Source: Sulfurihydrogenibium sp. YO3AOP1 (GTDB lineage: Bacteria; Aquificota; Aquificia; Aquificales; Hydrogenothermaceae). From it: a stretch of 64,000 bases of DNA. Below, piece after piece: positions 11,045 through 25,071 of this stretch; the first letter of the stretch is position 1, and each line of letters opens with the position of its first letter. The notes beneath the pieces were generated by a model that ran no database searches, was not told where the DNA came from, and saw only the letters and a list, made by a program, of their open reading frames with translations. Where the stretch lies: positions 1,323,501 to 1,387,500 of the forward strand of contig NC_010730.1 in the NCBI RefSeq assembly GCF_000020325.1. The letters run 5' to 3'. The position numbers were made by a program, and so were the translations under genes.

Positions 11045-12124
11045 ATGGCTCTACAAGGTGTAATGGATGTATTAAAAAAGACTACTTTAGAAGAAATTGG
11101 CATTAGTTTTTCTTTAGCTGATTTATTAAAGGATTTAAAAATAGAAGGAGATGATGTATATTTAGTTATTTTCTCTCCAAGTGAAAGATATCATCAATTT
11201 TTAAGAGAAAAGATAGAAAAAGCATTAAAATCTATTGGTGCAAAAAATGTTAACGTTGAGTTTTCAGACCAACCACCTCAAAGACAACAACAGCAACCAC
11301 CACCTCCACCACCACAAGCTAATCCTTTTGAAACAAGAAGAAGAATTCCAAATGTTAATAAAGTTATACTGGTAGCCTCTGGAAAAGGTGGCGTTGGAAA
11401 GTCAACTGTTGCAGTTAATTTAGCATCTGCATTAAAAAAACTTGGTTATAACGTAGGTTATTTAGATGCTGATATGTATGGTCCAAGTGGTCCAACCATG
11501 TTTGGAGCTAAAGATAAAAAAGTTATGGCAAGACAAACTCCAGAAGGAGATAAAATCATTGCACCTGAAGCTCACGGCGTAAAAATTATGTCTATTGGAT
11601 TTTTATTACCGTCAGAAGATACACCTGTAATTTGGAGAGGTCCAGTATTATTTAAAGCTTTAACACAGTTTTTATTTGATATTGATTGGGGAGAAGAAGG
11701 ACTTGATTACTTAGTTATAGATTTACCACCGGGAACAGGAGATGTTCAAATAACCATAGGACAAACGGCAGAAGTAGATGGAGCTATTATTGTAACTACA
11801 CCTCAAGACGTAGCATTGATTGACGTTAAAAAAGGTATACAAATGTTTAAAGAAGTTCAGATTCCAATAATTGGTGTGGTAGAAAATATGAGCTATTTTG
11901 TGTGTCCAGACAGTGGTAAAGCTTATGAAATATTTGGAAAAAGCAAAACGGGAGAATTGTTAAAAAATTACGGTGTGGAACTGCTTGGGAAAATACCAAT
12001 AGAGCCAAAAGTTGCAGAGTTTTCAGACTTAGGAATACCAATAGTATTTGCTAAGGAGGATTCACAATCAGCACAAGAATTTATAAATATTGCTAAAAAA
12101 GTTGTAGAAAAGCTTAATAAATAG
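11045..12124 (+). CDS. Mrp/ApbC/NBP35-family P-loop Fe-S carrier ATPase
   Basis: 359 residues. N-terminal MIP18/DUF59-like domain (about 1-75), a Gln/Pro-rich linker (QPPQRQQQQPPPPPPQANPF), then the P-loop ATPase with the deviant Walker A VASGKGGVGKSTVAVNLASA, LDADMYGPSGPTMFG, IDLPPGTGDVQIT and TTPQDVALIDVKKGI. These carriers assemble and deliver [4Fe-4S] clusters. The usual CPxC metal motif reads YFVCPDSGKAYEIFG, so the second cysteine is missing; single-Cys variants exist but it is worth noting. First gene of the sulfur/Fe-S block; the NifS-like gene starts 12 bases later. Confidence 0.9.
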   Translation: MALQGVMDVLKKTTLEEIGISFSLADLLKDLKIEGDDVYLVIFSPSERYHQFLREKIEKALKSIGAKNVNVEFSDQPPQRQQQQPPPPPPQANPFETRRRIPNVNKVILVASGKGGVGKSTVAVNLASALKKLGYNVGYLDADMYGPSGPTMFGAKDKKVMARQTPEGDKIIAPEAHGVKIMSIGFLLPSEDTPVIWRGPVLFKALTQFLFDIDWGEEGLDYLVIDLPPGTGDVQITIGQTAEVDGAIIVTTPQDVALIDVKKGIQMFKEVQIPIIGVVENMSYFVCPDSGKAYEIFGKSKTGELLKNYGVELLGKIPIEPKVAEFSDLGIPIVFAKEDSQSAQEFINIAKKVVEKLNK

Positions 12125-12136
12125 GAGGTATTAATT

Positions 12137-13348
12137 ATGAACAGAAGAATATATGTAGACCATTTAGCAACAACGCCAGTTTGCGATGAAGCCATAGAAG
12201 CAATGATGCCTTATTTTAAAGAAAAGTTTGGTAACCCAACATCTCTTCATGAAATGGGAATAGAAGCAAAAAAAGCTATAAACAGAGCAAGGGAGCAAGT
12301 AGCACAACTTTTAAATGTATCAAATCCGGAAGATATAGTTTTTACTTCAGGAGCTATAGAGGCCAATAACCTTGCAATAAAAGGATATGCAAAAGCGCCT
12401 GGAAGAAGAGGAAAACATATCGTTGTTTCTGCGATAGAGCACCACTCTATATTGCATTCTTGTAAAACACTTGAAAAAGAAGGATTTGAAATTACAGAAG
12501 TTCAGCCTGACGAGTATGGAATCATAGACCCAGAAAAATTAGCCGCTGCTGTTAGAGAAGATACTATTCTTGTATCTGTTGGATTTGCAAACAGAGAAAT
12601 AGGAACCCTTCAAGATATGCCAGCATTGGTTGCTGCAGTGAAAGAAAAAAATCCAAGAGTAGTTTTCCATTCAGATATAGCTGCTGCTGTTGGCCATATG
12701 CCTGTTGATGTTGAAGGATGGGGTCTTGATATGGCTTCATTTACAGGTCATTACTTTTATGCTCCAAAAGGTGTAGGTGGATTGTATGTTAAAAAAGGAA
12801 TTAGATTAAAACCACTTATAGAAGGTGGAATACAAGAAGGTGGAAGAAGAGCAGGAACAGAAAACGTAGCTGGAATTGTAGGAATGGGTGCAGCAGCTGA
12901 ACTTGCAATAAAAGAAATGGATGACAGAGTAAACAGATTAAGATACTTAAGAGATAAACTTAAAAAAGGTATTGAAGAAAGAATACCTTACATAAGATTT
13001 ACAGGTCATCCGGAAAAAAGACTTCCCAACCATCTTTCGTTGATTGTTATGTATATTGAAGGTGAAGCAATGCTTTTAATGTTAAATATTAAAAAGACAT
13101 ACACAGCTTCAGGGTCTGCTTGTGTATCTTATGCGTTAAAACAGTCTCACGTTTTAGCAGCAATAGGAGTAGAAAAGGAAGCATCAAACGGTTCTATCGT
13201 TTTCTCTCTTGGAAGAGATAATACAGAAGAGGACATAGATTATATTATTGAAGAATATCCAAAGGTAATTGCAAGACTTAGAGAGATATCTCCATTTAAC
13301 CCAGAAAACTGGGAAGAGTTTACAAAAAAAGCATCAAAGTTTAAGTAA
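12137..13348 (+). CDS. Cysteine desulfurase (NifS/IscS) homologue lacking the PLP lysine
   Basis: 403 residues, aligned residue-for-residue with IscS around the active site. Catalytic persulfide Cys329 (TASGSACVS), Asp180 and the His pair at 102-103 are present. But the lysine that forms the PLP Schiff base is Tyr206 (SFTGHYFYAPKG instead of SGHKIYGPKG). Other PLP contacts also differ: GAIEANN for GATESNN, NREIG for NNEIG, and DIAAAVG for DAVQAVG (Gln183 to Ala). It therefore probably cannot run normal PLP chemistry but keeps the mobile sulfur-carrying loop. It lies between mrp and iscU, in a run with TusA and a thiouridylase, suggesting a role as sulfur acceptor, carrier or scaffold. AGGAGG precedes the ATG. 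Confidence 0.85.
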   Translation: MNRRIYVDHLATTPVCDEAIEAMMPYFKEKFGNPTSLHEMGIEAKKAINRAREQVAQLLNVSNPEDIVFTSGAIEANNLAIKGYAKAPGRRGKHIVVSAIEHHSILHSCKTLEKEGFEITEVQPDEYGIIDPEKLAAAVREDTILVSVGFANREIGTLQDMPALVAAVKEKNPRVVFHSDIAAAVGHMPVDVEGWGLDMASFTGHYFYAPKGVGGLYVKKGIRLKPLIEGGIQEGGRRAGTENVAGIVGMGAAAELAIKEMDDRVNRLRYLRDKLKKGIEERIPYIRFTGHPEKRLPNHLSLIVMYIEGEAMLLMLNIKKTYTASGSACVSYALKQSHVLAAIGVEKEASNGSIVFSLGRDNTEEDIDYIIEEYPKVIARLREISPFNPENWEEFTKKASKFK

Positions 13349-13377: not shown

Positions 13378-13595
13378 ATACGTCGGGTAAGAAATTCAGT
13401 AAAAGTAGAAAATTCTTCGCCGGCTTTGGAATGACGAATAAGGCTACCGTTAACGTGCAACTCTTTTACTTTCCTTGTCATCCTGAGGACTTTAGTCCGA
13501 AGGATCTACTCTTTTGATTTTTTGGTTTGAAAAGAAAAATATGAGATTCTTTGCTTCACTCAGAATGACTGTGTGGATTTTTGGAACAGTTTCAC
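13378..13595. repeat. Hybrid repeat element: family-1 left half, family-2 right half
   Basis: Starts with ATACGTCGGGTAAGAAATT (family-1 terminus) and the TTCTTCGCCGGC arm, but ends TTTTTGGAACAGTTTCA (family-2 terminus) after GAGATTCTTTGCTTCACTCA-GAATGAC. The switch falls at the shared CATCCTGAGGACTTTAGTCC arm (13490). It fills the gap between the NifS-like gene and iscU; no gene is seen in 13349-13673. Confidence 0.7.
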
Positions 13596-13673: not shown

Positions 13674-14135
13674 ATGTTTGAATATACAGAAAAAGTAATG
13701 GATCACTTTATGAATCCAAGAAACTTAGGAGAAATACCAAACCCGGATGGAATAGGACAATGTGGTAATCCATCTTGTGGTGACGCTATGCTCTTTACTA
13801 TAAAAGTAGACAAAGAGACAGACACGATTACAGATGTTAAGTTTAAAACATTTGGTTGCGGTTCAGCGATAGCGGTATCTTCTGTTTTAACAGAAATGGT
13901 AAAAGGAAAGCCTATTGATTATGCTTTAAACTTAACTTATAAAGAAATTTTTGAAGAGCTTGGCGGATTACCACCACAAAAAATTCACTGCACAAACTTA
14001 GGATTAGAAACTCTTCATGTAGCTATTAAAGACTATCTTTTAAAACAAGGTAGAGTGGAAGAGGCAAGCAAAATACCTGACTGTATAGAAGAAGACCATG
14101 AAGAAGAAGCAGTATCCTTAGAGCATATGGGATAA
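13674..14135 (+). CDS. iscU: Fe-S cluster scaffold protein IscU/NifU N-terminal type
   Basis: 153 residues. The three cluster-ligand cysteines are in canonical blocks: GNPSCGDAMLFTIKV, FKTFGCGSAIAVSS and KIHCTNLGLETLHVAIKDY, with Asp after the first Cys. The LPPQKIHC loop (instead of LPxxKxHC) is the chaperone-recognition region. It builds [2Fe-2S] clusters with sulfur from a desulfurase. The C terminus carries an extra acidic tail (IEEDHEEEAVSLEHMG). AGGAGG precedes ATG. The next gene starts on its stop codon (ATAATG), indicating coupling. Confidence 0.93.
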   Translation: MFEYTEKVMDHFMNPRNLGEIPNPDGIGQCGNPSCGDAMLFTIKVDKETDTITDVKFKTFGCGSAIAVSSVLTEMVKGKPIDYALNLTYKEIFEELGGLPPQKIHCTNLGLETLHVAIKDYLLKQGRVEEASKIPDCIEEDHEEEAVSLEHMG

Positions 14136-15202
14136 TGAAAAGAAAGGCGGTAGCGCTATATTCCGGTGGGCTTGATAGTACTCTTGCTATCAAGCTCGTT
14201 CAAAACCAAGGTATTGATGTCTTAGCACTTCACTTTTACACTGGGTTCTGTATAACAGAAACCAAAAGAAGGAGAGGCGAGAAAAAAGAAGACGGCTCTC
14301 ACTATATGAATCCTGCCTTAAAATATGCTGCAAAATACGGATTTCCTTTAGAAATAGTGGACATATCAGATGGTTATATGGATGTTATTCTAAATCCAAA
14401 ATATGGATATGGGGCAAACATCAATCCATGTATAGATTGCAGAATCTATATGTTTAAAAAAGCAAAAGAAATTATGCAAGAAGTAGGAGCAGATTTTGTA
14501 ATTTCAGGTGAAGTTCTTGGACAAAGACCAAAAAGTCAAAAATCTATTCCTTTAAAAATCATAGAAAAAGAGTCAGGTTTAGAGGGTCTTATTCTTAGAC
14601 CATTATCAGCTAAAAAGCTTCCCCCAACAATTCCAGAAATAAATGGATGGGTAGATAGAGAAAAGTTAGAAGGCATAGTCGGAAGAAGCAGAAAAAGACA
14701 AATAGAGCTTGCAAAAGAGCTTGAAATAGATGAGTATGAATCACCGGCTGGTGGTTGCTGTTATCTTACCGATGAAAATTATGCTTATAAGTATAAAGAA
14801 ACAATGGAAATTGAAGGAAAGATTACACAAGATGATCTAGTTTTATTTACAGTAGGAAGACATTTTAGATTAGACTCAGGAATTAAGTTAATCGTATCAA
14901 GAAATGAAGGAGAAAATAATTTCTTATCAGGATTTAAGAAAAACTATCATTTCTTTGAACCACTTGGAAAAGGTCCGGTAGCAATTGCAAAAACCATAAA
15001 CGGCGAAATCTTAGATGAGGATGATAAACAAATAATTGCCAATATAATTGCAAGATATTCAAAGACAATTGACGGTAAAATTGATGTAAAATATTCTTTC
15101 ATGGATAGAGAGGAAATTTTAACCGGATTTCCTTTTGATGATGAAACGATTAATCAATGGAGGGTTAGCTTAAATGGAAATAAAAGCAGACATAGTCCAT
15201 GA
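14135..15202 (+). CDS. PP-loop tRNA thiolation-type enzyme (MnmA/ThiI-like)
   Basis: 355 residues. N-terminal ATP-pyrophosphatase loop ALYSGGLDSTLAIKLV, then INPCIDCRIYMFKKAKEI with a CxxC pair, DFVISGEVLGQRPKSQ, and later ESPAGGCCYLTD with the second cysteine site. The last 120 residues form a separate basic domain. The N-terminal half resembles MnmA-type thiouridylases, and the overall layout matches proteins often annotated as tRNA methyl(amino)-2-thiouridylate enzymes in Aquificota and Epsilonproteobacteria. Probably activates a tRNA base with ATP and accepts persulfide sulfur from TusA, whose gene overlaps its 3' end by 29 bases. Confidence 0.75.
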   Translation: MKRKAVALYSGGLDSTLAIKLVQNQGIDVLALHFYTGFCITETKRRRGEKKEDGSHYMNPALKYAAKYGFPLEIVDISDGYMDVILNPKYGYGANINPCIDCRIYMFKKAKEIMQEVGADFVISGEVLGQRPKSQKSIPLKIIEKESGLEGLILRPLSAKKLPPTIPEINGWVDREKLEGIVGRSRKRQIELAKELEIDEYESPAGGCCYLTDENYAYKYKETMEIEGKITQDDLVLFTVGRHFRLDSGIKLIVSRNEGENNFLSGFKKNYHFFEPLGKGPVAIAKTINGEILDEDDKQIIANIIARYSKTIDGKIDVKYSFMDREEILTGFPFDDETINQWRVSLNGNKSRHSP

Positions 15203-15407
15203 TGCAACAGGGACTTACTGTCCAATCCCTATAACAGAACTTGCCAAAGTAGCAAAAAAGGCAGAGAAAGGTCAGATTATAGAGCTTTTAGCAGACGATG
15301 AAGGAGCTATCCAAGATGTACCGGCTTGGTGTCAAACCACTGGAAATGAATTCTTAGGGTACAAAGAAGAAGACGGAATATTGCACTTTTACATCAGGAA
15401 GGTGTAA
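15174..15407 (+). CDS. TusA-family sulfurtransferase
   Basis: 77 residues, full TusA fold. Persulfide cysteine in ATGTYCPIPITELAKVAKKA (CPxP), then IELLADDEGAIQDVPAWCQT with the conserved DDxxxxxD..W block. Works as a sulfur shuttle between desulfurase/rhodanese enzymes and acceptors such as thiouridylases. A second Cys in PAWCQTTGN is common in the family. Overlaps the PP-loop enzyme and its TAATG end overlaps the next gene, so the three are probably made together. Confidence 0.9.
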   Translation: MEIKADIVHDATGTYCPIPITELAKVAKKAEKGQIIELLADDEGAIQDVPAWCQTTGNEFLGYKEEDGILHFYIRKV

Positions 15408-15639: not shown

Positions 15640-15894
15640 ATGGTGGCTTTTGACAGAGAACAAGAGGTCAGAGAGATTTTAGACAAAGTAAGACCTGCTT
15701 TACTTGCGGATGCTGGTAATATTGAGCTTGTTAAAGTTGAAAACGACGAAGTGTTTTTAAAATTATACGGCACATGCCAAACATGCCCGGTTGCTGATAT
15801 GACGATGAAAGATTTGGTAATTTATACTATAAAAGAATCTCTTCCATGGGTTAAGGCTGTAAACATTGGAGAAGAAAAATATCAAATAACATGA
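15640..15894 (+). CDS. NifU C-terminal-type Fe-S carrier (Nfu)
   Basis: 84 residues. The Nfu domain is complete: VREILDKVRPALLADAGNIE, VFLKLYGTCQTCPVADMTMK with the CxxC that holds a bridging [4Fe-4S] cluster in the dimer, and LPWVKAVN. It delivers clusters from IscU to apo-proteins. RBS AAGAGGTAG precedes ATG 15640. The stop overlaps the aroE start (ATGA). Confidence 0.9.
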   Translation: MVAFDREQEVREILDKVRPALLADAGNIELVKVENDEVFLKLYGTCQTCPVADMTMKDLVIYTIKESLPWVKAVNIGEEKYQIT

Positions 15895-24178: not shown

Positions 24179-24491
24179 AGAAATTCCGGCTAAAATAGTT
24201 TATGAAGATGAGTTGATAATGGCTTTTCATGATATAAGACCACAGGCAAAAGTTCACATACTTATAATTCCAAAGGAGCATATACCAAACAACCTTTATT
24301 TTGAAGGAAGACATAAAGCATTAATCGGTCATATTATCTTAAAAGCAAACGAAATTGCTAAAATGTTTGAAATAGACAAAACAGGGTTTAGACTGATAAT
24401 AAACTCAGGTCCGGATTCAGGACAGGAAGTTTTTCATGCACATTGGCATTTATTAGGAGGCGAGCCACTTGGAAAACTCATCTGTAAATAA
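24147..24491 (+). CDS. HIT-family (HinT-like) nucleotide hydrolase
   Basis: 114 residues. Zn-type start CVFCKIVNKEIPAKIVYEDE, then FHDIRPQAKVHILIIPKEHI and the histidine triad VFHAHWHLLGGEPLG. Hydrolyses nucleoside phosphoramidates or AMP conjugates. ATG 24147 is chosen because AGGAGG ends six bases before; an in-frame ATG at 24105 lies within hflX without a site. Confidence 0.92.
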   Translation: MDCVFCKIVNKEIPAKIVYEDELIMAFHDIRPQAKVHILIIPKEHIPNNLYFEGRHKALIGHIILKANEIAKMFEIDKTGFRLIINSGPDSGQEVFHAHWHLLGGEPLGKLICK

Positions 24492-25071
24492 AGAATTAGA
24501 AACAGTTGATACAAGAGGATTATTTTGCCCTTTGCCACTGACATTTGTATCAAGAAAGTTAAAAGAAATACCTGTAGGCGAAAGATTAAAAGTTTTAGCA
24601 GATGATAAAGCATTTAAGAAAGATATAGAAATATGGGCTTTTGAAACAGGTAATAAGCTTTTGGAGTTTAAAGAAGAAAACGGCTACTACGTTGCAGTTA
24701 TAGAAAGAGGAAAAGGTTTTAAAGGTGAAAGTATTTGGGATAAAATAAAGTTTATCTCCTTGGGTGTTAAGCTACACTTTATAAAACATCTTCTTGATAT
24801 CATTCCATTTAACAAGCCAAAGTATTTAATAACCTTTGTATCTGTTGCAGAAGGCTTAAGAGCAGCAGATTTCTTAAAAAGCAAAGGCATTGAAAATTTT
24901 ATAATGCTACCAGTTCCAAAAGAAATCTATCCACATTGCGGTCTTGTCTTTGGTTTAAAATCAAAAGATGATGCTGCTAAGATTTACAATCTTCTAAAAG
25001 AAAACAAATATGCTGTAGAGGACATACATATAATAGATAGGGAGAAAAAATATCCAAAGTTAGAGGTTTGA
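24469..25071 (+). CDS. TusA-DUF3343 fusion: putative sulfur/selenium carrier
   Basis: 200 residues from TTG 24469 (AGGAGG eight bases before). The N-terminal half is a TusA domain: DTRGLFCPLPLTFVSRKLKE with the persulfide Cys (CPLP), and LKVLADDKAFKKDIEIWAFE. After a short linker the C-terminal half (from about residue 120) reads YLITFVSVAEGLRAADFLKS, FIMLPVPKEIYPHCGLVFGL, the DUF3343 pattern with its conserved Cys. DUF3343 proteins are thought to carry S or Se. Having both carriers in one chain suggests internal persulfide hand-over. Overlaps the HIT gene by 23 bases and precedes a Sir2 gene. Confidence 0.8.
   Translation: MENSSVNKELETVDTRGLFCPLPLTFVSRKLKEIPVGERLKVLADDKAFKKDIEIWAFETGNKLLEFKEENGYYVAVIERGKGFKGESIWDKIKFISLGVKLHFIKHLLDIIPFNKPKYLITFVSVAEGLRAADFLKSKGIENFIMLPVPKEIYPHCGLVFGLKSKDDAAKIYNLLKENKYAVEDIHIIDREKKYPKLEV

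Follow-up and report, generated by a model that had tools for sequence, protein, structure and literature searches.

A lysine-less IscS homologue of Aquificota and other phyla as a candidate PLP-independent carrier of sulfur to IscU

The window, the whole stretch of 64,000 nucleotides of the thermophilic sulfur bacterium Sulfurihydrogenibium sp. YO3AOP1 that was analysed, carries at 12137-13348 on the + strand an intact open reading frame for a 403-residue IscS homologue. The reading frame, family models and alignment together identified it as an IscS homologue without the PLP lysine and without the arginine that binds substrate. Alignment with E. coli IscS (1p3w, 3lvm; 43% identity) placed Tyr206 (codon TAC, 12752-12754) at the PLP lysine Lys206, Ile74 (12356-12358) at Thr76, a PLP phosphate residue, Arg153 (12593-12595) at Asn155 and Ala183 (12683-12685) at Gln183, all on the + strand. 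These four changes had been named in a first-pass annotation of the window and are confirmed by codon and alignment, as is its view that Asp180, the histidine (here His104 and His205) and the persulfide cysteine, Cys328 in E. coli and Cys329 here (TGT, 13121-13123, + strand), are retained. The alignment added a fifth loss, Val355 (13199-13201, + strand) in place of Arg354, a residue of the SIRFSLGR motif that we take to anchor the substrate carboxylate. The window protein therefore resembles E. coli IscS in its fold, its Cys328 loop, the residues His104, Asp180 and His205 and its IscU partner, but differs from that active PLP desulfurase at Lys206, Asn155, Gln183, Thr76 and Arg354.

The protein matched Pfam PF00266 (Aminotransferase class V) with 247 bits. 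It fell below the NCBIfam equivalog cut-offs for NifS (470.7 bits, cut-off 530.75) and IscS (380.6 bits, cut-off 643.2), a weak criterion when taken alone since a lysine-bearing NifS-like protein of Aquificota also falls under both. The predicted model (pLDDT 87) aligned with IscS structures at Z scores of 48-50, showing that the fold is retained. Comparison of the window gene with its relatives gave dN/dS values of 0.01-0.09, indicative of strong purifying selection.

The gene stands in a cluster on the + strand in the order mrp, iscS homologue, iscU, ThiI-like thiouridylase gene, tusA, a small open reading frame and nfu, in agreement with the neighbours named in the first-pass annotation. 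The Mrp/ApbC-type Fe-S carrier ATPase (11045-12124) lies 5' of the iscS homologue in both Aquificota families considered below. The next gene, 325 bases downstream, encodes an IscU/NifU-N scaffold (13674-14135) that keeps the E. coli IscU ligand residues C35, D37, C62, H105 and C106. Family matches identified a ThiI/MnmA-like tRNA thiolation enzyme with an NFACT-R_2 domain (14135-15202), a TusA-family sulfur carrier with a CPxP motif (15174-15407) and an Nfu-type Fe-S carrier domain (15640-15894); tusA is thus within the cluster (iscS-iscU-thiouridylase-tusA) and not directly beside the iscS homologue. A promoter and terminator scan of the cluster gave nothing above chance for promoters. A dispersed repeat, TGTCATCCTGAGGACTTTAGTCCGAAGGATC, is present in five copies in the window (13476-13506, 33097, 52830, 57060 and 61118) where none would be expected by chance, and one copy lies in the gap separating the iscS homologue from iscU.

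Two checks proposed in the first-pass annotation, a residue comparison across Aquificota and a genome search for a second, normal IscS or SufS, were run. A protein search matched the window protein in 101 of 136 Aquificota genomes. The lysine was lost in all 82 orthologues from Hydrogenothermaceae and Aquificaceae, family names that we assigned from kinship codes f1 and f2, with Tyr in 36 of 36 and Leu in 46 of 46, respectively. Ile74, Arg153, Val355 (82 of 82) and Cys329 (82 of 82) were invariant over both families, and the whole ASGSACVS loop was conserved across Aquificota. The uniform Tyr and Leu rule out a sequencing or annotation error, and the 82 orthologues bearing the same residues, together with the low dN/dS, rule out a decaying gene, as had been claimed at first pass. 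Further lysine-less proteins of other kinds were seen in Aquificaceae. One genome bin (contig C112 of G031) encodes a divergent NifS-like protein (L092:2184-3350; 49% identical) with Tyr at the lysine position and the cysteine kept, next to genes that by inspection are NifV-like and NifB-like, an apparent nitrogen-fixation region. Genomes G036, G029 and G051 carry a class-V paralogue (L224, L225 and L226) with DGPS or DGPF for SGHK, which also keeps the cysteine.

We considered whether the protein might still be a PLP cysteine desulfurase that binds the cofactor non-covalently or through another lysine. His104, Asp180 and His205 are invariant and Lys211 is close by in sequence, as this reading would have it, but the substrate arginine, Asn155, Gln183 and Thr76 have been lost along with the lysine, and Lys211 belongs to the PKG motif of canonical IscS as well and is no replacement. 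Lys335 (13139-13141, + strand), which takes the place of E. coli Glu334 six residues past the cysteine, was rejected as a substitute on other grounds, being a clade signature near the cysteine and outside the PLP site. Recent PDB entries bear on the same point. The wild-type sequence of 9wfy is identical over 395 residues to the orthologue in genome G001, which we take to be Aquifex aeolicus VF5, and the readable variants among 9wep, 9wer, 9wew, 9wf8, 9wfb and 9wfe carry T, N, Q, K and R again at precisely the five lost positions. The seven entries (9wep-9wfy) are titled 'cysteine desulfurase' and are absent from the structure library ending April 2026; no papers on them were found in the literature searched. 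The restorations imply that a laboratory is already working on this site in a relative, and the deposited sequences suggest that those who submitted them consider the wild type to have no working PLP site. The G001 orthologue, at about 68% identity to the window protein, shares its five losses and its cysteine, but has Leu rather than Tyr at the lysine position and Pro rather than Ala at 183, and its genome, unlike that of the window, has a Lys-bearing NifS-like paralogue (L099). A surviving PLP desulfurase activity thus appears highly improbable. Judging from its residues, the lysine-less IscS very probably has no functional PLP bound and takes no sulfur from cysteine.

The search of the host genome, a single contig of 1,838,442 bases that is 99.98% complete, found no second IscS, NifS or SufS by protein search or by class-V aminotransferase family search. 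The sole other strong class-V match, L003, was rejected as a hidden normal desulfurase since glyoxylate and pyruvate transaminase models gave its top scores; a third match, L004, was set aside because by inspection it resembles an acetylornithine-type aminotransferase. SufB and SufD were absent from the host genome in a search that was positive in 14 of 14 control genomes, and a SUF back-up in the host was rejected on this basis. Across the phylum, SufB/D occurred in 29 Aquificota genomes, all of families f3-f5, and in none of 105 Hydrogenothermaceae and Aquificaceae genomes. Absence of another desulfurase is not genus-wide, as other members of the genus have in addition a NifS-like gene that bears the lysine; in the single-contig genomes G030, G033, G037, G039, G053 and G058 the search at E <= 1e-5 matched nothing but the orthologue. 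The host encodes three TusA-family proteins and eight rhodanese domains. Elsewhere in the window, 24469-25071 encodes a 200-residue protein with an N-terminal TusA domain and a further C-terminal part. The f3-f5 genomes (G105-G135) gave no IscS-type match at E <= 1e-5, and most hold one short SufB/D-like open reading frame (about 310-325 residues) resembling a minimal SUF system; these Aquificota possibly have no cysteine desulfurase of any kind.

Relatives beyond the phylum were sought by scanning 84,980 species genomes with degenerate codons for the IscS motif with a non-lysine codon, the Aquificota versions being left out. The scan matched 35 loci, 33 of them IscS-like, in Nitrospirota, Thermodesulfobacteriota, Coatesbacteria, Eisenbacteria, Verrucomicrobiota, Planctomycetota, Hydrothermarchaeota and Asgard archaea, and an Aquificota-only peculiarity was thereby rejected. 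Additional Nitrospirota members were added from a phylum search. In a tree from which the five trait columns had been excluded, 58 rows including Aquificota formed one clade (SH-aLRT 99), which among the sampled rows spans Aquificota, Nitrospirota, Thermodesulfobacteriota, Coatesbacteria, Eisenbacteria, Verrucomicrobiota and some archaea. Within this clade Arg354 was lost in 58 of 58 rows and Lys206 in 55 of 58, with Q, L, Y, R, T, A, I or E in its place; Cys328 was kept in 58 of 58, and Glu334 was replaced by the equivalent of Lys335 in 56 of 58. Of the alignment columns with at least 90% fixation in 42 canonical homologues, seven are at most 50% fixed in the clade, and five of the seven are T76, N155, Q183, K206 and R354, indicating a relaxation directed at the site for PLP and substrate. 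Three Nitrospirota rows (L250, L254 and L268) have kept Lys206 and lost Arg354 and Gln183, a pattern suggesting that loss of cysteine binding preceded loss of the lysine; a grouping of just the lysine-less rows was not rejected in a topology test. Together with L252, these Nitrospirota loci are apparent intermediates, and L250, L254 and L268 have iscU and tusA downstream. His104, Asp180 and His205, which touch PLP in canonical enzymes, are invariant in the clade, so the pocket may still bind some other ligand.

The constancy of the cysteine bears on a further reading, in which the protein is a pseudoenzyme scaffold whose sole task is to stabilise or position IscU, and perhaps also Mrp or the thiouridylase, with Cys329 having a structural role. 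A retained fold around a lost catalytic site is what such a scaffold would look like, but the cysteine has been kept throughout the clade and the Aquificota orthologues, and also in four of four sequences of an archaeal type with Asp for the lysine (D-type), while the catalytic positions drift, and in Aquificota the entire loop around it is conserved. We therefore consider a purely structural role unlikely.

The gene neighbourhoods outside Aquificota pointed to a partner. In Nitrospirota, Thermodesulfobacteriota and Hydrothermarchaeota the lysine-less iscS lies in a cassette, either tusA-iscS-iscU or iscS-iscU-(gap)-tusA. Among non-Aquificota loci, tusA was found within 1.2 kb on the same strand at 39 of 43 Arg354-less loci versus 3 of 41 Arg-keeping homologues, many of the latter being drawn from the same genomes as the former, and two of the three Arg-keeping loci with tusA share a cassette with a lysine-less copy. 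The Fisher p of 1.6e-15 for this association is not phylogenetic; only 2-3 independent changes underlie it, too few for a phylogenetic pair test to be informative. iscU was nearby at 34 of 43 Arg354-less and 16 of 41 Arg-keeping non-Aquificota loci. Since tusA is upstream in some loci and downstream in others, the arrangement was probably reassembled repeatedly. For the archaeal D-type, all three mapped loci contain both tusA and iscU; in Aquificaceae tusA was not found beside the iscS homologue, mrp being the only neighbour found there. The link to TusA that the first-pass annotation had proposed thus gains support from cassettes in other phyla. Several E. coli TusA-contact positions are altered in the window protein (W45I, R237G), and the adjacency of tusA could equally reflect IscS passing sulfur to TusA, or shared regulation.

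We hypothesize that the lysine-less IscS is a PLP-independent homologue that would no longer draw sulfur from cysteine. It retains the fold of IscS as well as the Cys329 loop and would form, with IscU, the Fe-S assembly core of the host; TusA, or a rhodanese or polysulfide upstream of TusA, would load persulfide onto Cys329, and Cys329 would then give the persulfide to IscU, in reverse of the usual IscS-to-TusA direction. As the PLP and substrate site is gone, the cysteine is conserved and the host has no other desulfurase and no SUF, sulfur is probably fed from another source, perhaps TusA. We regard the sulfane-sulfur relay from TusA through Cys329 to IscU as the best explanation as a whole, at about an even call, and the persulfide on Cys329, the direction of transfer and the sulfur source are parts of it that we infer. 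More tentatively, and somewhat short of an even call, the combination of PLP-free IscS, TusA and IscU in several phyla may constitute a cysteine-independent entry of sulfur to Fe-S clusters, running from TusA through IscS to IscU, that would replace the desulfurase step altogether in some Aquificaceae and Hydrogenothermaceae without a SUF scaffold.

A different use of the same cysteine is suggested by Archaeoglobus fulgidus IscS, in which the lysine is replaced by Asp and which, according to PMC7585200 (citing Marinoni 2012, Yamanaka 2013 and Pagnier 2014), has no desulfurase activity, its cysteine ligating the [2Fe-2S] cluster of IscU. By analogy, no persulfide would form in the window protein, and Cys329 would be an extra ligand holding the nascent [2Fe-2S] on IscU as sulfide enters directly. 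The A. fulgidus protein, known from structures 4eb5, 4eb7 and 4hvk and the D199K mutant 4r5f, is like the window protein in its IscS fold (44% identity), its cysteine, its IscU partner and its loss of the equivalents of the PLP lysine, Gln183 and Arg354. It differs in its phylum and gene neighbourhood and in having Asp at the lysine position, Asn for His205 and Asn155 and Thr76 kept, where the window protein has Tyr, His, Arg153 and Ile74. It groups with Lokiarchaeota and Thorarchaeota sequences of the D-type, in which Asp replaces the lysine and Gln or Leu the arginine. A quick tree placed the clade of the window protein apart from A. fulgidus IscS, but an enforced single clade scored higher and was not rejected (p-AU 0.744), leaving a strictly independent origin unsupported and a shared ligand role conceivable. 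The ligand role is also kept alive by the finding that, when E. coli lacks iscS, H2S can supply IscU with sulfur (PMC13015791), a finding that fits the proposed PLP-independent relay as well. The ligand role would leave unexplained the presence of tusA at almost every Arg-less locus outside Aquificota, D-type loci of Lokiarchaeota and Thorarchaeota among them. Sulfurihydrogenibium is not known as a strict anaerobe, and free sulfide chemistry is less favourable where anaerobiosis is not strict. We judge the ligand role, the main rival of the relay, possible, if doubtful.

An IscS without its PLP site is not unprecedented, given the published A. fulgidus protein and the PDB entries of the G001 orthologue and its revertants. 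Methanosarcina acetivorans IscS1 is likewise reported to lack the catalytic lysine (PMC7585200), but that organism also has an active IscS2 and SufBC. The minimal MisS-MisU system of Helicobacter pylori resembles the host in having one IscS-like and one IscU-like protein as its sole Fe-S machinery (PMC10653786), but MisS/NifS is a working PLP cysteine desulfurase. Against these precedents, what is new here is the wider reach of the lysine-less IscS and the clue to a partner in tusA; no account was found in the literature searched of the multi-phylum clade, the arginine-first loss, the tusA cassette or the lack of any further desulfurase or SUF scaffold. In methanogens, the factors that bring sulfide or sulfane sulfur to Fe-S assembly without a cysteine desulfurase are stated to be unknown (PMC7585200). 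The lysine-less IscS offers a concrete and testable candidate for sulfur delivery, with two families that have no SUF, members without a recognisable desulfurase and a conserved tusA-iscS-iscU cassette elsewhere. The annotation 'cysteine desulfurase' is likely wrong for this clade across several phyla, and such an error would mislead reconstructions of metabolism and work on the evolution of Fe-S assembly.

Several archaeal loci showed other variations. Five homologues from Asgard and related archaea (L143, L147, L149, L163 and L165) have His or Arg at the lysine position, in the motif DAH(H/R)IHGPKG, and keep both Arg354 and the cysteine; three of the five adjoin iscU. L153 and the second copy of L195 are IscS homologues seemingly without both the lysine and the cysteine loop. 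In the Hydrothermarchaeota loci L191, L192 and L194, an iscS with Arg for the lysine and no Arg354 is followed by tusA, an iscS with the lysine kept, iscU and a second iscU-like open reading frame, so that apparently inactive and active copies stand side by side and perhaps form a heterodimer.
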